Shown here piece after piece: positions 45,294 through 53,570 of a stretch of DNA of 64,000 nucleotides. Both the position numbers and the translations under genes were made by a program. The notes under the pieces are model-generated. The model did not search any database. It was not told the origin of the DNA and was given only the letters and a program-made list of their open reading frames with translations. Source of the DNA: Pseudomonas cichorii (lineage in GTDB: Bacteria > Pseudomonadota > Gammaproteobacteria > Pseudomonadales > Pseudomonadaceae). The stretch is taken from NCBI RefSeq assembly GCF_018343775.1, contig NZ_CP074349.1:5857501-5921500 (forward strand), in the 5' to 3' direction. Position 1 is the first letter of the stretch. The number at the start of each line of letters is the position of its first letter.

Positions 45294-46898
45294 CTAAAAG
45301 GTAGCAGCACTGCTACCTTTTTCATTTGCAACAAACACTGTATTCCCTCCTTCCTGCCACTTGATGACCTTGTTCGGGTCAGCCTCGCTGCGCACGATGC
45401 ATTTCCATTCATAGCGGGTATTGTCGGCAAGCCGGATCTGCCCTTTCCAGACGGGATACTGGCTCACATCACTCAGGCGCACCGCCCGTGCCGGGTTCCA
45501 CTCACCCAGCTCGAAGCCCGCCCCCACGACATAAACGCCCTCGCCCACCTGGGTTTCGCCCTTGTCGCAACGAAACTGCACATCGACCCCTTTGGCCCGC
45601 CAGATTCGTATGGCACCGTTGTCGCCCGCCACCAATGCCTGGCTGAAACTGCCCGGCACACTCTCGCTCTTGAAGTTGGAGCCCAGCGCTACCAGCAGCA
45701 TCTGGTGCGAGCCTGTCACTTCGGCCACCAACCCTGAATAGTTGTCCATAAAGCTGATCGCGGAATCGGCCTTGATACCCGCAGTGCGGCGTATCTCTAT
45801 CAACTGGCGCAGCAGTTGGCCACGCGGCCAGTCATACATGTCCGGCCAATACACCGTTGGCGTTCCGGGGCTGCTGAGAATATAGGCGTAGGCCTGGTCG
45901 CGAAGATTTTCAGGTAATGACCAGTGATGCTGGCCGCCGTTGGCTCCCGGCGAATAACCGGTGTCGTGGTTATCCACAAAGGTCATGGCAGCGGCACGCC
46001 ATGCAGGATCGGGATTACCGTTGAGGCCATATCGCCATTCGGCGAGCCCGGCATTCTGCATACGCTCTTTGAGCGCGAAGTCGAATACCGTGCAATGCGA
46101 CTGATCGGACCAGACTTTCAGACCATCCTGCCAAGTGGCGTTATGTCGCCAGTCGTTGGCGGGATACTCGTTCGGCGCTTTCCAGAGTTCGCCGACACAG
46201 AAATGCTGATCGCCGAAGGCCTTCATCCAGTTATCCACCGTCGTCGCACTGTAGCCTTTTACAAAATCGAAACGCAGGCCGTCGGCGGAATAGTGATCGC
46301 GCAGGTTCAGGAACTCGTTCTTGAAGAGGTTGAACACTTCAGGCTTTTGCGTATTGAGATCGGCATCACCGCCCATGAACGGATCGCCATCGTCACACTG
46401 GTCGCAGCCATCACGCCAATCCGTCTTGTCACTCAGGGATTCCTTGAGCGCAGGCCCGACATGCTGGCGGTCCATATGATTGGGCACCACGTCATAGATC
46501 ACTTTGACAGTGGCGGCGCTCAAGGCATCGACCGCTTGCCGGAGTTCGGCATCGCTGCCATAAGCACTGTTCTTGTCGAAGTCCTGCCAGAAATACCCCT
46601 CGCCACCCCCTGAAGCACCGGTCCCCGGATCGCTCCAGCGCGAAGTATCACGCCAGGGCACCGGCATCCAGACCGAGGTAAAGCCATCGGCGCGGATCTG
46701 CGCAGCCATGGTCTTGAGCGTGCTGTACCAACTCCCGGGGCTTGAGCGGCTGGAATTCCAGTGAAACCCCTGCAGCACGATTTCATCATTGCCATCGCTA
46801 CGAGTGCCCTCGGGGGTATTGCCGCGAAGATCTTCTGCACTGGAGACCTGAGCCACCAGCAGAAGGATTGAAATCGCACCGAGCTTGAAAAGGTTCAT
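45294..46898 (-). CDS. Secreted maltotetraose-forming alpha-amylase
   Basis: 534-residue GH13 amylase close to the maltotetraohydrolase (G4-amylase, AmyP) of P. stutzeri. Signal peptide MNLFKLGAISILLLVAQVSS; catalytic residues in DGLRFDFVKGY (nucleophile Asp), FCVGELWKAPNEYP (acid/base Glu) and FVDNHDTGYSPG (third Asp). The C-terminal 95 residues form a CBM20 starch-binding domain (VDVQFRCDKGETQVGEGVYV, then GELGEWNP-like). Exported enzyme releasing maltotetraose from starch. The ATG at 46898 is chosen because GAGGAG precedes it. Last codons overlap the bidirectional terminator. Confidence 0.93.
   Translation of the reverse strand: MNLFKLGAISILLLVAQVSSAEDLRGNTPEGTRSDGNDEIVLQGFHWNSSRSSPGSWYSTLKTMAAQIRADGFTSVWMPVPWRDTSRWSDPGTGASGGGEGYFWQDFDKNSAYGSDAELRQAVDALSAATVKVIYDVVPNHMDRQHVGPALKESLSDKTDWRDGCDQCDDGDPFMGGDADLNTQKPEVFNLFKNEFLNLRDHYSADGLRFDFVKGYSATTVDNWMKAFGDQHFCVGELWKAPNEYPANDWRHNATWQDGLKVWSDQSHCTVFDFALKERMQNAGLAEWRYGLNGNPDPAWRAAAMTFVDNHDTGYSPGANGGQHHWSLPENLRDQAYAYILSSPGTPTVYWPDMYDWPRGQLLRQLIEIRRTAGIKADSAISFMDNYSGLVAEVTGSHQMLLVALGSNFKSESVPGSFSQALVAGDNGAIRIWRAKGVDVQFRCDKGETQVGEGVYVVGAGFELGEWNPARAVRLSDVSQYPVWKGQIRLADNTRYEWKCIVRSEADPNKVIKWQEGGNTVFVANEKGSSAATF
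45297..45322. terminator. Bidirectional terminator between asparaginase and amylase genes
   Basis: AAAAGGTAGCAG / CTGCTACCTTTTT is a 12-bp perfect stem with A/T flanks on both sides, so it ends both convergent transcripts. It lies inside the last nine codons of the amylase gene. Confidence 0.85.
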
Positions 46899-47353
46899 GG
46901 CGATACTCCTCAGGAAGAAGGAAGTTATCGCCAGAGTAGGCACCGTCTGTGGGCGTGTAACCTGATAGAACTGACAGGGAGTCCTTTCAATTGGTTACGA
47001 AAAAGCTATTTCTTATTCCAATAATAGAATTTCTTATCTATGCCTTACCTCTAACGAGTATTTCCTGGACATAACCAACATCCCTTCCACAAAAGTAAAT
47101 GTAACGTGTCATTTCTAAAAAATAGAATACTTAATCCTACAAAGTCCTACATGAAGATCGTGAAATGACTGCGCAAGTTCAAAAATCACAATAAATCGAT
47201 GCCCGAACTTTCCTACACTGAGAATTAAAAATAACCAAATTTTGGTCAGTAATCCCACGCGCCCACGAATTCTGGGGGTTGACTGATCAAACGATATTAA
47301 GCAAATTCAAGACGGCCTCGGAAAAGAGGACAAACCCAATAAGGAGAAATGCA
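46899..47353. other. AT-rich noncoding region upstream of the biosynthetic cluster
   Basis: 455 bases, sharply richer in A and T than the amylase gene beside it. It marks the left edge of the acquired segment. Contents seen: TTCTA-A5-TAGAA at about 47113-47128, the perfect dyad at 47235-47247, and TTGACT at 47280-47285 as a possible -35 without a good -10 at 16-18 bases. No gene supported. Confidence 0.5.
47235..47247. promoter_or_regulatory. Palindrome, possible operator
   Basis: ACCAAATTTTGGT, a perfect 6-1-6 dyad, 33 bases before a TTGACT -35-like element and 119 bases before the small peptide gene. No cluster-encoded regulator exists, so any binding protein is encoded elsewhere. Confidence 0.4.
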
Positions 47354-47431
47354 ATGAAAAGCGCTAAATATTTGTTCGTAAAGAACCAAGACTTTGACAA
47401 GCCTAAAGAGTTCAGGTCGCAAGCCTGGTGA
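47354..47431 (+). CDS. 25-residue peptide, candidate biosynthetic precursor
   Basis: Very small gene: ATG to TGA, 25 residues beginning MKSAKYLFVKNQDFDKPKEF and ending Arg-Ser-Gln-Ala-Trp. AAGGAG lies exactly 7 bases upstream of the ATG, the best ribosome site of the whole region. Composition is charged (five Lys, one Arg, two Asp, one Glu) with five aromatic residues (Tyr6, Phe8, Phe14, Phe20, Trp25). It is followed by a hairpin and then the radical SAM gene, an order common for ribosomally made precursors whose transcript is more abundant than that of the enzymes. Alternative: a regulatory leader peptide. I recognise no known family. Confidence 0.6.
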   Translation: MKSAKYLFVKNQDFDKPKEFRSQAW

Positions 47432-47449
47432 TCGCTAATCACTGATAAT

Positions 47450-47484
47450 CGTGCACTGTCGATTAAGTAATCGTGCAGTGCACG
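47450..47484 (+). terminator. Attenuating hairpin between peptide and radical SAM genes
   Basis: CGTGCACTG / CAGTGCACG, a perfect 9-bp stem with a 17-base loop and no T-run. It lies 18 bases after the peptide stop and 15 before the next ATG. It may stabilise the 3' end of the short transcript or lower read-through. Confidence 0.55.
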
Positions 47485-47498
47485 AGCTAGGATCAAAC

Positions 47499-48914
47499 AT
47501 GAAGATTATTGGGCGAGACTTGCTACCCTTTGACATACAGTACCCGGTCTATAATTTTTTCTACCCGAACTCAGGCATTGCCGTTGAAAAAGCATCGATA
47601 GCTAATATCATTGAAAACTCTTCAAAAAACGCTAAATATAGAGCGATTTATATACACATACCTTTCTGTGACACGCTGTGCTCTTTTTGTCCTTTTACTC
47701 GAGGAAGAGTAACAGACAGCAATATCATAGAGCTCTATGTTCAAGCACTCATCAATGAGATTCAATGGAAAGCTCAGGAATATAATTTAAGTCAACCACC
47801 TATCAATGCAATATTTTTCGGTGGCGGAACGCCCTCTATGATGTCCGCAGAACAAATTGAACGCGTGGGTCATGTGCTGCACAAAAACTTTAATCTTACC
47901 CACGTAAAGGAATTTTCTTTTGAAATAGAAGTAAAAAGCCTTACACAGGAAAAAGCTCAAGCCATGCGACAGATTGGTGTAACACACCCAAGGTTCGGCC
48001 TACAAAGCTTTTCAAAGAAATGGAGAGATATCTTTACGTTAACTGCAACCTTAGAGCAGATTTATAATAGCTTAAATATTCTGAGCAAGAAATTCGACAA
48101 CATTTCAGTGGACATACTGTATGGCATGTCGGGACATACAGAAGAAGAATTGATATCCGACTTAAAACACGCTAGTGACACAGGTGTCAGCAATATAGAT
48201 ATTTACCCTATTGATAATATAATGACTCAACCAGCATTGCATAGAACGCTGAAAAAGCTGAACCACCTACCGACATCAGCAACAAGAAAGCTGTCAATGA
48301 ATGTGCTGGCGGACACTTATCTACGGTCAAGAGGATACATGCCACACAACGGCCATGGCTACCGCAATGTTGGAATTGAAGAGGTTAAAAATGACATTGT
48401 AATAGATACCTATAGGTTTGAATATCATGAACACGTATACGGCTATCAAGACCATGACTTGCTTGGATTTGGAGTCAGTGCAATCAGTAGTCTTAATGGT
48501 GCCAAACTTATCAACACCAATCAAAGAAGCAAATATATCTCTCAATTCACACAAAATAATAATCCAGAAAACACATTTCATGTCACTCAGCATAGTTCAG
48601 AGCTGGACCTATTGAGGCCTCTCGCCCTGCGGCTTCCATATTTTGGCTCGGTCGATAAATCCAGAATGCGCTATGACTCAATACCTGCTGAATCAAAACT
48701 TAAAATTGAACAACTAAAAAATGCTGGGCTCATCATCGAAAATAGCCACCAGCTTAACCTGACAAAAACAGGATGGCATAACTATGTCAACCTCATGTAT
48801 TACCTGCTTCCTGATATCGAACAGCACGCACTGGATAACTTTATTGCAGAACAATTAACAGGATCGGCACGAGATATCACTAAAAATGAAATTCTATTTT
48901 CTACCGGGGCATAA
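47499..48914 (+). CDS. HemN-like radical SAM protein
   Basis: 471-residue radical SAM enzyme. YIHIPFCDTLCSFC gives the [4Fe-4S] ligands Cys57, Cys61, Cys64 (CxxxCxxC); GGGTPS at 108-113 and SVDILYGMSGHTEEEL match the HemN/coproporphyrinogen-oxidase-like branch, and the C-terminal 110 residues look like a HemN C-terminal domain. HemN-like proteins include methyltransferases, cyclopropane-forming enzymes and haem-degrading enzymes, so the reaction cannot be predicted. Start at ATG 47499 with AGGA 7 bases upstream. Gene context (peptide, two decarboxylases, exporter) argues against haem synthesis. AT-rich codon use unlike the flanking genes. Confidence 0.85.
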   Translation: MKIIGRDLLPFDIQYPVYNFFYPNSGIAVEKASIANIIENSSKNAKYRAIYIHIPFCDTLCSFCPFTRGRVTDSNIIELYVQALINEIQWKAQEYNLSQPPINAIFFGGGTPSMMSAEQIERVGHVLHKNFNLTHVKEFSFEIEVKSLTQEKAQAMRQIGVTHPRFGLQSFSKKWRDIFTLTATLEQIYNSLNILSKKFDNISVDILYGMSGHTEEELISDLKHASDTGVSNIDIYPIDNIMTQPALHRTLKKLNHLPTSATRKLSMNVLADTYLRSRGYMPHNGHGYRNVGIEEVKNDIVIDTYRFEYHEHVYGYQDHDLLGFGVSAISSLNGAKLINTNQRSKYISQFTQNNNPENTFHVTQHSSELDLLRPLALRLPYFGSVDKSRMRYDSIPAESKLKIEQLKNAGLIIENSHQLNLTKTGWHNYVNLMYYLLPDIEQHALDNFIAEQLTGSARDITKNEILFSTGA

Positions 48915-48952
48915 ACAAGACGTATCCCCCTTATTTAGAGGTTCAACACCTT

Positions 48953-49345
48953 ATGGACACTTCTCATCCAGCATTTTCTGGCACACATATTTTTGGACAG
49001 CTCTCGGGATTAGATTTCGAGCTTTTAAATGATCTTCGCTTTTTAGAAGGCAGTTTGCTTGATTCAATATCCATCGGTGGGGCGACTGTATGCGGCTATA
49101 TTTCCAAAAAATTTGAACCACAAGGTGCCACCACATTAATTCTACTTTCAGAGTCGCATGCCTCAATCCATACATACCCAGAAATAGGCTGCCTGTTTTT
49201 CGATATATTTACATGCGGTGACTGTAGCCCTGACTTAATGGTCGACTCGCTGATACTGAAACTAAAACCAACCACAATAAGCAAGTCCTCTATCGTACGT
49301 CACTTATGCCCTGACAGCAGCGGCTTACCGCCTGAGCATATCTAA
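48953..49345 (+). CDS. S-adenosylmethionine decarboxylase-like pyruvoyl enzyme
   Basis: 130-residue proenzyme of the prokaryotic SpeD/SpeH family. LSESHASIHTYPE gives the Glu67-Ser68 self-cleavage site that forms the pyruvoyl group and His73; FDIFTCGD gives Cys88. The spacing Ser-5-His-15-Cys is identical to that of Thermotoga AdoMet decarboxylase (63, 68, 83). It should convert SAM to the aminopropyl donor decarboxylated SAM. Some SpeD homologues have changed substrate to ornithine or arginine, so activity is not certain. It starts 38 bases after the radical SAM gene. Confidence 0.85.
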   Translation: MDTSHPAFSGTHIFGQLSGLDFELLNDLRFLEGSLLDSISIGGATVCGYISKKFEPQGATTLILLSESHASIHTYPEIGCLFFDIFTCGDCSPDLMVDSLILKLKPTTISKSSIVRHLCPDSSGLPPEHI

Positions 49346-49468
49346 GCGACTATTATAATAGCTTTGCACATCCTGCACATACTTTTGAACCCGCCTACTT
49401 TTTTTGAATTCGGCCAGCGCTTCTATTACGAAAACCTATCTATAAAGGTGGGACCATCGAGGTATTAA

Positions 49469-50719
49469 ATGCTAACGATTATTCTTAATAAAAAGCTACT
49501 CCCGCTATCCTTATCAAGCCTTATATCAAAAACAGGAGATTATGCATATGAAATAGCTTTTGCGCTGATTGCTTTAGACCTGCTCTCCTTCAATTATCTA
49601 CACATCGGGCTCGTCTATTTTTTCAGATTTTTGCCTTATCTTTTCACTGGCCCGATAGGGGGATGGTTGGCCGATGGACGGCCTTATAAAACGAACATGA
49701 TTTTTAGTGATCTATTACGATGTGCCGTCGCTGCCGTTCTATATACCTTATACTACTTTGGATTACTCGAAATTTTCACACTGGTTATTTGCTCAATGAT
49801 AATGACCATAGGGCGAAGTTTATTTCAACCCAGCTTTCGGTCTTACCTACCAACTATTCTCGATGAAAAAGACTTACCCGCGGGTAATAGTCTAATGCAA
49901 ATAATAGAGGATATATCCTCTATCCTAGGCCCTGTAATATTTTCACTAATAATAACATTTGGGGACAAAAGCCATATCATTCTCATGTACACGATAGGTT
50001 ATTTTTTTTCGATAATAGCTTTATCACGACTGCATCTAAACGTCCCCGAATCCAAAAGTGATTTTACATTTTCGACGGTATTGAATGACACCTGTAACGC
50101 TCTCACGAAAATGTACGACCACAATCATAACCTACTGATGGTCATTGGCGGAACTTCTGTCTGTGTTTTGTTTACCGCATCGTTGCTACGGTTTGTTCTT
50201 CCTGCATCAATTATTGAAATCTATCACGACGAGGTATTAGTAGGTTATTTATTTTCACTTATGTCTGCGGGCACAGTAGTGGGTGGCCTGAGCTATACGG
50301 CACTTATAAAAAACACCACACCAACACAATTAATGAATGCCTGGATGATTTATGGCTTGCTCTTCATGCTGGTATCCATAGCTCTAAAATTCAGTTTTAT
50401 ATTTGCTGCCACTCTCATTATATTCTTGGGCTTTTCAGGCGCAATTGTGGATATTTCCATCATCACTAACATTCAATCACTTTCAACTAAAGATGAGTTA
50501 GGGAAGAATTATGGAATTCACTCAACTGTTGCCAACGCCTGTGAGGCAGCATCAGGGCTTATATCCGGTGCCTTCACATTATTCATTGGCGGAGCATCAT
50601 TTCCGATTATTGCATTACTCATTGCAGCTGCAGCCAAATATACAAACTTTAAAATCAAAAGGTCTAACCATGAAAAAAACAAAACCGCAAAACACAGGGT
50701 CTTTGAAAGCGCAGACTAA
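49469..50719 (+). CDS. MFS exporter
   Basis: 416-residue major facilitator protein with about 12 hydrophobic helices (SLISKTGDYAYEIAFALIAL, then FLPYLFTGPIGGWLADGRPY at the 2-3 loop). It resembles the MFS_3/EntS-type exporters that accompany small-molecule biosynthesis, and I infer that it secretes the cluster product. GAGG lies 6 bases before the ATG. Its last 50 bases overlap the start of the ornithine decarboxylase gene in another frame, which implies coupled translation. Confidence 0.85.
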   Translation: MLTIILNKKLLPLSLSSLISKTGDYAYEIAFALIALDLLSFNYLHIGLVYFFRFLPYLFTGPIGGWLADGRPYKTNMIFSDLLRCAVAAVLYTLYYFGLLEIFTLVICSMIMTIGRSLFQPSFRSYLPTILDEKDLPAGNSLMQIIEDISSILGPVIFSLIITFGDKSHIILMYTIGYFFSIIALSRLHLNVPESKSDFTFSTVLNDTCNALTKMYDHNHNLLMVIGGTSVCVLFTASLLRFVLPASIIEIYHDEVLVGYLFSLMSAGTVVGGLSYTALIKNTTPTQLMNAWMIYGLLFMLVSIALKFSFIFAATLIIFLGFSGAIVDISIITNIQSLSTKDELGKNYGIHSTVANACEAASGLISGAFTLFIGGASFPIIALLIAAAAKYTNFKIKRSNHEKNKTAKHRVFESAD

Positions 50720-52568
50720 TAGTCATCCTTTACCCCCCTTCTTCAACGCTCTTACTCGGTATGTTTCCAAAAACAATGTCACCTTTGCATGCCCAGGCCA
50801 TCAGGGTATAGACTTTTTCTCGAAGCATCCGGCAGGAAAGACATTCTTGGATTTTTTCGGAGAGAATTTATTCAGAGCGGATGTGCCTCACGCTGACCCT
50901 GTACTTGGAGAACTACTAAGCCATGGAGGCCCGCCAGGGAAGGCCGAAGAATATGCAGCCACAGTTTTTAACGCCGATAAAACCTATTTTGTTCTTAACG
51001 GAACATCCGCATCTAATAAAGTCGTTGCGAATGCACTACTGACGCCGGGTGACATTGTGCTGTTTGATAGAAACAATCATAAATCCTGCTATCACGGCGC
51101 GTTGATTCTGGCAGGAGCGACTCCTGTCTATTTAGAAACCTCCCGCAATGATTTTGGGCTTATTGGCGGAATACCAGAGCATTGTTTTGAAGAGTCCTAT
51201 CTTCGAGAAAAACTGAAGCTTGTTGCTCCTGAGCAAGCCTTGAAGCCTCGACCATTTAGACTCGCTATTCTCCAACTAGGAACATGGGATGGTACGGTTT
51301 ACAACGCTAAAGAAGTCATAGCAAAAATAGGACATCTCTGCGAGTACGTGCTTTTTGATTCTGCATGGCTAGGTTACGAGCAGTTTATACCGGTGATGCG
51401 TGATTGCTCCCCTCTCCTGCTGAACCTTACTGGCTCCGACCCCGGCGTCATTGTCACCCAATCAGTTCACAAACAGTTAGCAGGCTTTTCACAAGCTTCA
51501 CAAATCCATAAAAAGGACAATCATATTAAGCAAGCGCCACACTACTGCAACCATGATCGCTTCAATAATTCTTTTATGTTACATGCCTCCACAAGCCCTT
51601 TTTACCCTCTATTCGCGTCGCTGGATATCAATGCAAAGATCCACTCAGAAGGCAGCGGGAAGCGCCTCTGGGAAGAATGCGTTCGGTTGGGAGTAGAAGC
51701 ACGAAAAGCCATATTTTCCTCATGTAAAATGATAAAACCCTTCATCCCCTCTCACATTGAAAATAAATCCTGGCAAAGCTTTGACACTCACACCATTGTG
51801 AATGACTTGCGCTTCTTCACATTCGGCAAAGATGAAGCCTGGCACAATTTTTCAGGCTATGGCAACTCTCAATATCTTTTAGATCCTTGCAAGCTTCTGT
51901 TAACCACGCCCGGAGTCAATGCAACAACGGGAAACTATGAGGAATTTGGAGTTCCTGCTACCATTCTAGCGCATTATTTGCGTGAAAACGGTATTGTTCC
52001 CGAAAAAAGCGACCTTAATTCCATCGTTTTTTTATTAACACCCGCCTTGTCACGCTCAAAAATTGACATCCTCGTTTCCAAACTACGCCAGTTTGAGCTT
52101 CACTTGGATAAAAACTCACCTTTAAAAAAGGTTATTCCAAGTACTTATAGAAAACATAAAAATCGATATGCAAACTACACGATATTAGACATTTGCCAAG
52201 AAATGCACTCCCTGTATTCCTTATACAATTTTAAAAAACTACAACGCGACATGTTCAGCGAGTCATATTTTCCACATGTGGATATGCATCCTTATAAGGC
52301 TAATCTCAAATTAATTCGAGGCGAGGTAGAATTAATTCCTTTGAGATTGGCGGAGGGTAGAGTAGCTGCCGAAGGCGCTGTACCTTATCCACCAGGTATT
52401 ATCTGCATTGCTCCAGGGGAGCGTTGGGGAGGACCCGTTTTCGATTATATTCTTTCCATTGAACACATCATGAATAGCTTTCCCGCTTTTGGCCCAGATG
52501 TCCAAGGTGTACACATACAGATCGGAAACAATAAAAAACAGGAGTTTTATGTCTATGTTGTTAAATAG
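50670..52568 (+). CDS. PLP-dependent ornithine decarboxylase, short form
   Basis: 632-residue fold-type I decarboxylase that converts ornithine to putrescine. The core is very close to SpeC/SpeF: ATFACPGHQ-like TFACPGHQGIDFFSKHPAG, NADKTYFVLNGTSASNKVV, LFDSAWLGYEQFIP (Asp230 binds the PLP ring nitrogen) and TQSVHKQLAGFSQASQIH with the PLP lysine Lys268. Enterobacterial SpeC/SpeF are about 710-730 residues; the missing part is the N-terminal wing domain used in dimer/decamer assembly. Start ATG 50670 with AAAGG 7 bases upstream. Last gene of the cluster, followed by an intrinsic terminator. Confidence 0.92.
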   Translation: MKKTKPQNTGSLKAQTNSHPLPPFFNALTRYVSKNNVTFACPGHQGIDFFSKHPAGKTFLDFFGENLFRADVPHADPVLGELLSHGGPPGKAEEYAATVFNADKTYFVLNGTSASNKVVANALLTPGDIVLFDRNNHKSCYHGALILAGATPVYLETSRNDFGLIGGIPEHCFEESYLREKLKLVAPEQALKPRPFRLAILQLGTWDGTVYNAKEVIAKIGHLCEYVLFDSAWLGYEQFIPVMRDCSPLLLNLTGSDPGVIVTQSVHKQLAGFSQASQIHKKDNHIKQAPHYCNHDRFNNSFMLHASTSPFYPLFASLDINAKIHSEGSGKRLWEECVRLGVEARKAIFSSCKMIKPFIPSHIENKSWQSFDTHTIVNDLRFFTFGKDEAWHNFSGYGNSQYLLDPCKLLLTTPGVNATTGNYEEFGVPATILAHYLRENGIVPEKSDLNSIVFLLTPALSRSKIDILVSKLRQFELHLDKNSPLKKVIPSTYRKHKNRYANYTILDICQEMHSLYSLYNFKKLQRDMFSESYFPHVDMHPYKANLKLIRGEVELIPLRLAEGRVAAEGAVPYPPGIICIAPGERWGGPVFDYILSIEHIMNSFPAFGPDVQGVHIQIGNNKKQEFYVYVVK

Positions 52569-52590
52569 TCATGTCTCTCCGTGACGAGCG

Positions 52591-52623
52591 GGCGTTATCG
52601 CTACATTAATGGTAACGCCTTTT
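52591..52623 (+). terminator. Intrinsic terminator of the biosynthetic cluster
   Basis: GGCGTTA / TAACGCC stem followed by TTTT, 23 bases after the decarboxylase stop. Confidence 0.8.
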
Positions 52624-52636
52624 AAGATCGCGATTC

Positions 52637-52684
52637 ATTCGCGAAGAAGAGTATGCGTTTTAATCTTAAATCCTCTTCGCGAAT
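52637..52684. repeat. Inverted repeat at right edge of AT-rich segment
   Basis: ATTCGCGAAGA and TCTTCGCGAAT, an 11-bp perfect inverted repeat spaced by 26 bases and related to half of a REP element. It sits where base composition returns to normal, directly before the end of the bestrophin gene, and may serve as its terminator. Confidence 0.55.
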
Positions 52685-52691
52685 ACAATCA

Positions 52692-53570
52692 TCACTCGGC
52701 CCATACGATACTTTCCTTCCGCGCATCCCTGAGCATCGAATCCAGATTACGCTCGATGTTCTCGCACAGCGCGGTCATCTGGATTTCGTGTTCGCTGGCA
52801 CGAAACGGGCTTTGCAGGTCTGTACCGATCTTTTCGATGGCCAGCAGCATGAAGCCCACGACCGTCGACGCCAGCGGCGTGAACCAGCCGAGGGTTTCCA
52901 CCAGACCGATAGGCACGATCAGGCAGAACAGGGTGATGAACAACCTGGGGAATGCGACGTAGGGATACGGCAGCGGGGTGTTGGCAATCCGCTCCATGCC
53001 GCCCTGGCAGTTGGAGAGATCCACCATCGTCGATTCGAGGCGCGCCAGGCGAATGCTGTCCAGTCGCCCGGCCTTGTATTCGTTGGCAATCAGTGCAGCG
53101 CTGGCATTGAGCAGGTCGTTGGGGAAGTTATTGGTGTCCAGACGGCGCTCGAACTCTTCGCGGGGAATCAGGGCCTGTATATCGGCCTTGGTGATGTCAC
53201 CCTTCAAATGCGCCGCCAGGGCTTTCACGTAAGCCACATGGCGACGCAGTAACAACGCCTTGATCGGATTGATGCCGTCCTCATCATCGATCAGCGTCAA
53301 TGCCTGACGGGAGAAGCTGCGGGAGCTGTTGACCAGTGCGCCCCACAAGGTTCGGGCTTCCCACCAGCGGTTGTAGGCGCTGGAGTTACGAAAGCTGATC
53401 AACACCACCAGGGACGAACCCAGCAGCGTCAACGGCATCGATGGCAGGGTGATCTTGCGCTCCAGGTACAACATGAAGTCGACCGTCACAATCACGTCCC
53501 AGATCAGCAGCCAGAAAAGCGACCACCCCACATAACCGATTGTCTTGTTCAGAAACCGGCACTTCTCCAT
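52692..53570 (-). CDS. Bestrophin-family membrane protein
   Basis: 292-residue bestrophin/YneE-type channel protein. Hydrophobic helix pairs near residues 15-70 and 200-245, with the family pattern SFRNSSAYNRWWEARTLWG and the WFTPLASTVVGFMLLAIEKIG segment, followed by a conserved acidic/Pro tail. Probably an anion or cation channel of the inner membrane. Five more residues are possible from a TTG at 53585, which has a comparable ribosome site. Confidence 0.88.
   Translation of the reverse strand: MEKCRFLNKTIGYVGWSLFWLLIWDVIVTVDFMLYLERKITLPSMPLTLLGSSLVVLISFRNSSAYNRWWEARTLWGALVNSSRSFSRQALTLIDDEDGINPIKALLLRRHVAYVKALAAHLKGDITKADIQALIPREEFERRLDTNNFPNDLLNASAALIANEYKAGRLDSIRLARLESTMVDLSNCQGGMERIANTPLPYPYVAFPRLFITLFCLIVPIGLVETLGWFTPLASTVVGFMLLAIEKIGTDLQSPFRASEHEIQMTALCENIERNLDSMLRDARKESIVWAE

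Follow-up and report, generated by a model that had tools for sequence, protein, structure and literature searches.

What could be made by an operon in which the gene of a 25-residue peptide is joined to those of a HemN-like radical S-adenosylmethionine (SAM) enzyme, a SAM decarboxylase-like protein (SpeD), an exporter of the major facilitator superfamily (MFS) and an ornithine decarboxylase-like protein (ODC) is the question raised by an AT-rich cluster of Pseudomonas cichorii, and, with it, whether a HemN-type enzyme may decarboxylate or alkylate a Trp residue at the end of a peptide. The cluster lies in a stretch of 64,000 nucleotides (the window; positions 5857501-5921500 of a single-contig, 5.98-Mb genome), in whose own numbering positions are given in the following. 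It is probably a compact, horizontally moving operon, whose product would be either a ribosomally synthesized and post-translationally modified peptide (RiPP) or a small molecule assembled on a peptide scaffold, and there is good reason to believe that the tiny peptide serves as the substrate of this pathway.

The whole cluster is contained in a segment (47008..52729, 5,722 bp, no strand) of 41.2% G + C, as opposed to 58.5% and 58.8% in the two 5-kb flanks, which bears out the markedly lower G + C content pointed out in an initial annotation of this DNA. In a close relative (G018) the same flanks (92.6% and 95.8% identical) are separated by 58 bp (L058 10632-10689), the boundaries of the segment being set by the ends, at window positions 47007 and 52730, of the two long alignments to that genome. 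Since the flanks are only 58 bp apart at the same place, a single insertion or deletion event brackets the entire cluster, beyond chance. The cluster itself is absent from G018, where the search with the radical SAM protein found no match. No integrase-like gene was seen among the open reading frames (ORFs) of the insert, and no useful repeats were found at its ends. A phage origin was considered and rejected, as the 11 loci given by the scan of viral contigs all encode distant radical SAM proteins, with 25-36% identity to a part of the query, and a coverage of 80% of the radical SAM query is reached by no phage record; a defence origin was also discarded, with one weak PADLOC match only (20.5 bits).

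All five genes of the initial annotation are found on the + strand, tightly spaced or overlapping, with gaps of 67, 38, 123 and -50 nt between successive genes in the order peptide (47354..47431), radical SAM enzyme (47499..48914), SpeD (48953..49345), MFS exporter (49469..50719) and ODC (50670..52568). The radical SAM enzyme (471 aa) is started by the ORF list at an upstream GTG (47451), and the exporter (416 aa) scores above the cut-off of PF07690. The statement that the cluster has no regulator, spermidine synthase or peptidase of its own also holds, none being detected by Pfam among the four cluster proteins. The intrinsic terminator said to close the cluster fares less well: a terminator-like hairpin followed by TTTT is predicted by folding at 52590..52623 (+ strand), but it is missing from the list of a consensus terminator scan of 46800-53000, which returned 4 terminator-like sites, i.e. 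fewer than the 5.1 found in shuffled sequences.

A radical SAM gene of this family is found in the 15 loci examined (the window, L009, L019-L025, L004-L008 and L026). All four enzyme genes occur together in ten of them (the window, L009, L006 and L019-L025), in Pseudomonas, at four genomic sites, and on a Xenorhabdus plasmid, so that the lack of co-occurrence that the initial annotation regarded as fatal to the cluster idea was not encountered. The SpeD gene of L019 escaped BLAST and was found by reading the sequence. Loci L019-L025 are not seven independent cases, because they occupy only two genomic sites (L019, L021, L022, L023 and L024 at one, L020 and L025 at the other), and the separate sites with SpeD are, therefore, six (two for L019-L025, plus the window, L009, L006 and L005). 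The radical SAM gene precedes that of SpeD in the window and in L009, and follows it elsewhere. In all but one of the 15 loci, an MFS gene is a neighbour of the radical SAM gene.

The other loci show variations of the set. On a Glaesserella plasmid (L005) SpeD, the radical SAM enzyme and the MFS protein are found with a cytochrome P450 in place of ODC; a Klebsiella plasmid (L004) carries radical SAM, P450 and MFS genes, with neither SpeD nor a peptide gene ahead and with its start seemingly cut by an insertion element; in L007 (Alicyclobacillus plasmid) the radical SAM enzyme is accompanied by a degenerate SpeD-like protein and the MFS protein, and in L008 (Cytobacillus) by the MFS protein and a DinB-family protein; in L026, whose contig measures no more than 6,846 bases, the radical SAM gene is interrupted by an internal stop and all the partners are missing. 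Signs of decay are visible both on the Glaesserella plasmid, with an MFS gene in two pieces (L005:4196-5406), and on the Klebsiella plasmid, where an ISL3-family transposase gene interrupts that of the P450 (L004:7376-9805).

The distribution is thin. At E 1e-50, and with the genome of the window included in every count, matches were found in 9/398 genomes of the genus, 2/369 of the class, 1/398 of the phylum, 1/328 of the family and 1/57 of the relatives, while a second draw of the genus gave 5/239, all already known; apart from the distant G592, no new cluster came from the draws at class, phylum and family level or from the second one of the genus, a scan of genome contigs returned a single locus, and the search for Escherichia coli copies of the Glaesserella cluster gave no DNA-level match. 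Among the 120 listed of 2607 database matches of the radical SAM protein, the nearest (87% identity) is labelled P. cichorii, and homologues are also found in Pantoea, Trinickia, Vibrio, Photorhabdus and cyanobacteria.

The tiny gene (+ strand, 25 codons, MKSAKYLFVKNQDFDKPKEFRSQAW) indeed opens the cluster, as initially proposed, and is preceded by an AAGGAG Shine-Dalgarno sequence. An ORF of 10-29 codons, similarly preceded by a Shine-Dalgarno sequence, opens the operon in 13 of the 15 loci, from Pseudomonas, Xenorhabdus, Glaesserella, Alicyclobacillus and Cytobacillus, and is thus conserved across Pseudomonadota and Bacillota; none is present upstream of the first enzyme gene in L004 and L026. 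Examples are MKSAIELFKTDVTGVTTKGVCMW (Pseudomonas), MESAMELFEVDINDCDLQGLCMW (Xenorhabdus), MENAIELFVSRKNEEHYDFNNVAW (Glaesserella) and MNAKSAKGFFKKNQQATSRVKEFGTRACW (P. gingeri). The peptides of the most distant loci, MRDIVWDIVW (L007) and MKKEWVALKNEWVAL (L008), contain internal repeats, which may be likened to those of multi-core precursors.

In the alignment of ten distinct peptides, which represent 11 loci (L023 and L024 have the same peptide, and L007 and L008 were excluded as too different), M1, A4, F8 and W25 (window numbering) are invariant, and S3 is found in nine of the ten. Twelve of the 13 peptides end with Trp followed by the stop codon, to be compared with a background of 18/370 among Shine-Dalgarno-preceded ATG ORFs of 8-40 codons drawn from the analysed sequences of >10 kb (true peptides included), and the residues ahead of this Trp, the proposed substrate residue, vary (CMW, CLW, ACW, QAW, VAW, IVW). 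Codon changes are mostly synonymous in the seven Pseudomonas loci L019-L025, where the proportions of synonymous (pS) and non-synonymous (pN) differences, summed over pairs that are not independent of each other, are 0.590 and 0.094, respectively (pN/pS 0.16); therefore, the amino acids are conserved, and not the RNA alone. An encoded precursor conserved together with modifying enzymes, as is proper to RiPP or peptide-scaffold pathways, is thus present, and, of the accessory genes that are common but not universal in RiPP pathways, that of an MFS exporter is found and that of a peptidase is not. Of the ‘polyamine-related or peptide-scaffolded’ metabolite of the initial annotation, the scaffold half is well supported by the conservation of the gene with the cluster and by the Trp end.

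A conserved peptide gene may also be a regulatory leader, in which stalling of the ribosome at the last codons (attenuation or arrest) would control a hairpin and, through it, the operon, with the peptide not being a substrate at all. A strong hairpin without a T run is predicted between the peptide gene and the first enzyme gene of the window (47449..47485, + strand; z = -3.99 versus shuffles, computed on 47425-47510), and a hairpin is found 3′ of the peptide gene in 13/13 loci with a peptide, the best local folds ranging from -13.9 to -24.4 kcal/mol. As graded by eye on folds and sequences, a clear T-rich run follows it, as in intrinsic terminators, in L005, L020, L021, L023 and L024, where the stem begins no more than 12 nt from the first base of the stop codon, and a weaker one in L006, L019 and L025. 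The position of the single C-terminal Trp near the hairpin is what a leader would have, cis-acting leaders can show amino-acid conservation too, and in the microcin C operon termination downstream of mccA is induced by the binding of ribosomes to it (PMC6495379), so that a precursor gene can also regulate. However, intrinsic attenuation cannot be general, because the hairpins of the window, L009, L022, L007 and L008 lack a T run. Furthermore, 11 of the 13 peptides contain one Trp codon only, A4 and F8 in the N-terminal part are as conserved as the end, the L007 and L008 peptides are internally repeated, and Rfam gave no RNA element at E up to 1 in 46900-53000. Overall, that the peptide acts as a leader instead of as a substrate is unlikely.

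The two decarboxylases could, in turn, be taken as a polyamine module, in which ODC and SpeD would feed the host spermidine synthase or the formation of an unusual polyamine, to be modified by the radical SAM enzyme and exported by the MFS protein. In favour of such a module, SpeD (130 aa; PF02675 and TIGR03330 above cut-off; ESHASIHTYPE...TCG) retains the pyruvoyl Ser, His and Cys that, with a Pro said to separate SAM decarboxylases from the arginine-decarboxylase branch, serve to recognize SpeD proteins (PMC10407285), and the Pro is also present, as placed by its position after HTY. The ODC-like protein (632 aa, SpeF/OKR type; PF01276/PF03711 and NF010092 above cut-off, TIGR04301 below) lacks the N-terminal wing, being aligned to 1ord from residue 106 of 1ord onward, and keeps the OKR motifs SVHKQ, NNHKS, FDSAW and PEKSD, i.e. 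the catalytic motifs of the Lactobacillus ODC over 601 aligned residues. We take them to provide the Lys for pyridoxal phosphate (PLP), the His and Asp motifs and, in PEK, the Glu residue.

Against a polyamine module speaks the fact that no aminopropyltransferase gene was seen inside the clusters (no search for one was made in the flanks of unannotated loci), that L005 has no ODC yet retains the peptide, SpeD, the radical SAM enzyme and the MFS protein, that further matches to the AdoMet_dc and Spermine_synth families are found elsewhere in the host genome, and that the conserved peptide is left unexplained; we consider it, therefore, quite improbable. SpeD with catalytic residues is found in 11 of the 15 loci, and in all 11, L005 included, its gene adjoins or overlaps that of the radical SAM enzyme; since this adjacency is kept also where ODC is missing, SpeD is linked more closely to the radical enzyme than to ODC. 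As to the latter, the lengths of the eight ODCs from L006 and L019-L025 range from 683 to 733 aa, and the TPG...GVPA loop (window residues 402-432), kept in the window, L009 and L006, is changed or shortened in L019-L025, so that, judging from this loop, the substrate of these seven may not be ornithine. ODC and P450 look like alternative tailors. The ‘polyamine-related’ half of the initial proposal is, accordingly, weakened by the lack of a spermidine synthase in the clusters, by L005 and the damaged L004, which have a P450 and no ODC, and by the changed loop of L019-L025.

A set for haem use, with the radical SAM protein as a haem-degrading enzyme of the ChuW/HutW type, as the name in the Xenorhabdus record has it, was already disfavoured and is hardly credible, since TIGR04107, though the best-scoring NCBIfam model (178.8 bits), has a cut-off of 400 bits and gives 552.7 and 570.4 bits with two annotated HutW proteins, the family forms a clade of its own (support 99/97), apart from host HemN, host HemW and the two HutW, and neither hutX nor a haem transporter is found among the cluster genes; a haem role of the enzyme was thus rejected by both model scores and tree. 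Indeed, the protein is below the NCBIfam cut-offs of HemN (121.7 bits versus 324.95), HemW and HutW alike, and the grouping with haem-pathway HemN that would have spoken against the initial cluster idea did not occur.

The fold predicted for the radical SAM protein is, nevertheless, that of HemN; NocN, an enzyme of the class C methylases, was not among the structural matches shown, which is uninformative. A survey of 117 family sequences (that of the window, plus 116 of the 120 homologues listed), to which the NocN numbering (PMC12871812) was mapped by hand counting from a profile alignment, allows for a closer comparison. Invariant in 117/117 rows are C57, C61 and C64 of the CxxxCxxC motif, Y51 (NocN Y34, HemN Y56), E142, Q169 and D205 (NocN D196). 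For HemN, the roles of residues beyond Tyr56 are assumed here. According to PMC12871812, the Tyr equivalent to Y51 stacks on the second SAM, whose methionine end is bound in NocN by R153. The position of this Arg is taken by H163 in 116/117 rows and by Arg in one, while NocN Y96 and S225 are replaced by F106 and D234, respectively, in all 117. Besides, R165 is found in 117/117 rows and in L007, the residue being Ser in HemN, HemW, HutW and L008, which retains Arg at 163. The change from Arg to His at position 163 along with R165 is, on the alignment, the clearest mark of the family, and H163 would suit a second SAM without carboxylate, a role that it fits rather than shows. NosN and NocN are similar to the cluster enzyme in being HemN-type dual-SAM enzymes, and they act on an indole-bearing RiPP (PMC12871812). 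Residues of both SAM sites are partly kept with respect to these class C methylases; they differ in that only the radical SAM domain aligns well in sequence and in the three replacements just described. HemN itself (oxygen-independent coproporphyrinogen III oxidase) is 21% identical, belongs to a separate clade and differs from the cluster enzyme, which has His and Leu at the positions of the NocN R153 and R171 Arg residues.

Combining these features with the preferred view of the peptide as substrate, a course of reaction may be proposed. The 25-residue peptide would be made in excess, the hairpin separating its gene from the enzyme genes, and its conserved N-terminal motif SAxxxF might be bound by the enzymes. 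The radical SAM enzyme would act on the C-terminal Trp using, like HemN, two SAM-type molecules. In HemN, a SAM-derived methylene radical takes a hydrogen from the β carbon of the substrate propionate and promotes decarboxylation, with formation of a vinyl group (PMC12871812). The chemical likeness is suggestive, the group pyrrole-CH2-CH2-COO- of the HemN substrate having its counterpart in pyrrole-CH2-CH(NH-peptide)-COO- of a peptide-terminal Trp, and, by this analogy, Trp would have to be last, with the preceding residues free to vary, because it is the terminal Trp that offers the HemN-like group. A HemN-type decarboxylation, leading to a C-terminal vinyl-indole enamide, is the favoured outcome, although, resting on analogy, it is put forward as a tentative proposal; alternatively, a one-carbon or an aminopropyl unit could be transferred to the indole. 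SpeD would supply decarboxylated SAM, which could serve as aminopropyl donor or take the part of the second SAM in the radical enzyme, and the PLP decarboxylase here, or the P450 in the Glaesserella and Klebsiella version, might tailor the product or supply an amine. The MFS protein would export the product, host peptidases would trim it, and a role as an antibacterial or signalling small peptide appears likely. In its most specific form, this amounts to a novel class of RiPPs, with a HemN-family radical enzyme that uses SpeD-made decarboxylated SAM on the encoded C-terminal Trp of a 23-29 residue peptide, which is conceivable rather than probable.

Several observations weigh against the proposal. 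Decarboxylated SAM cannot be universal in these systems, because L008 has no SpeD in its operon and the protein in the place of SpeD in L007 (L007:9519-9917, 132 aa), although alignable with SpeD, lacks the catalytic Ser, His and Cys and matches PF02675 only at E 0.08. The L008 peptide ends in Leu, and no peptidase is found among the cluster proteins. In the radical SAM enzyme, the Arg assigned in NocN to the carboxylate group of the first SAM (R171) is replaced by L181 in 116/117 rows and by Ile in one, which the use of decarboxylated SAM does not explain, and some changes are common to relatives (Phe106 and Ile181 in HemW, Asp234 in HutW). The R153-to-His replacement may also reflect a pose of the second SAM similar to that in HemN, where the Arg equivalent to R153 is retained, yet, according to PMC12871812, the methionine end has no direct hydrogen bond to the protein. 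Finally, the shuffle control of the hairpin covers the window only, the values for the other loci being raw fold energies.

Among known systems, the microcin C operon (mccABCDE) is the nearest in gene logic, with a tiny precursor gene in first position, a terminator hairpin, located between mccA and mccB, modifying enzymes, an export pump and aminopropyl decoration (PMC6495379). In contrast to microcin C, whose precursor has 7 aa and ends in Asn, the cluster encodes a precursor of 23-29 aa ending in Trp, has a radical SAM enzyme and SpeD instead of the MccB adenylyltransferase, no MccB (ThiF-like) domain being found among the four cluster proteins, and carries no MccF-type immunity gene; it does not, therefore, belong to the microcin C family. 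In microcin C, MccC is presumably an MFS pump, the aminopropyl donor presumably SAM-derived and the MccE domain presumably a PLP decarboxylase. The ammosamide pathway is the nearest in using the terminal Trp of a peptide: in pearlins, a C-terminal Trp is modified on a peptide scaffold and then released (PMC12715798). There, however, Trp is added by a PEARL enzyme, whereas that of the cluster is encoded, and the cluster has no gene for a PEARL, a flavoenzyme or a peptidase. The pyrroloquinoline quinone, mycofactocin and biarylitide clusters also encode short precursors on which radical SAM or P450 enzymes act, but they involve other radical SAM families and have neither SpeD nor ODC. Among the titles listed, from open-licence PMC only, none is on this gene set, which is no proof of its being unpublished.

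If the proposal is correct, the enzyme would be, to our knowledge, the first radical SAM enzyme taking decarboxylated SAM as co-substrate, and haem-type propionate decarboxylation would have been directly carried over in evolution to a peptide C-terminus, which would connect the enzymology of polyamines (SpeD, ODC) to the radical chemistry of peptides and add a scattered, mobile and very small (approx. 5 kb) natural-product system to those known. A precursor gene as short as this one escapes most gene callers, and the enzymes bear haem or polyamine names in public records. As an example, the Xenorhabdus gene at L006:8001-9410 (AP028979.1) is annotated as hutW, its protein reaching only 162.2 bits versus the HutW cut-off of 400.

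Some minor observations were made on relatives of the cluster genes. The fetched stretch of plasmid pHS-Rec (L061) contains P450 and MFS genes, with no SpeD or radical SAM gene annotated. The P450 of the Glaesserella cluster matched 64 Pantoea plasmid records, of which the five listed are all from P. agglomerans and match residues 205-353 only, at approximately 50% identity; in one such Pantoea locus (L060:8007-8471) no radical SAM gene is annotated in 16 kb, and the match is perhaps a remnant. The radical SAM homologue of L026 is distant (36%) and has its internal stop as TAG; beside it, two ORFs of 615 and 369 aa lie on the same strand, which, by eye, are candidates for a B12-type radical SAM protein and a protein similar to cyclopropane fatty acid synthase, respectively.

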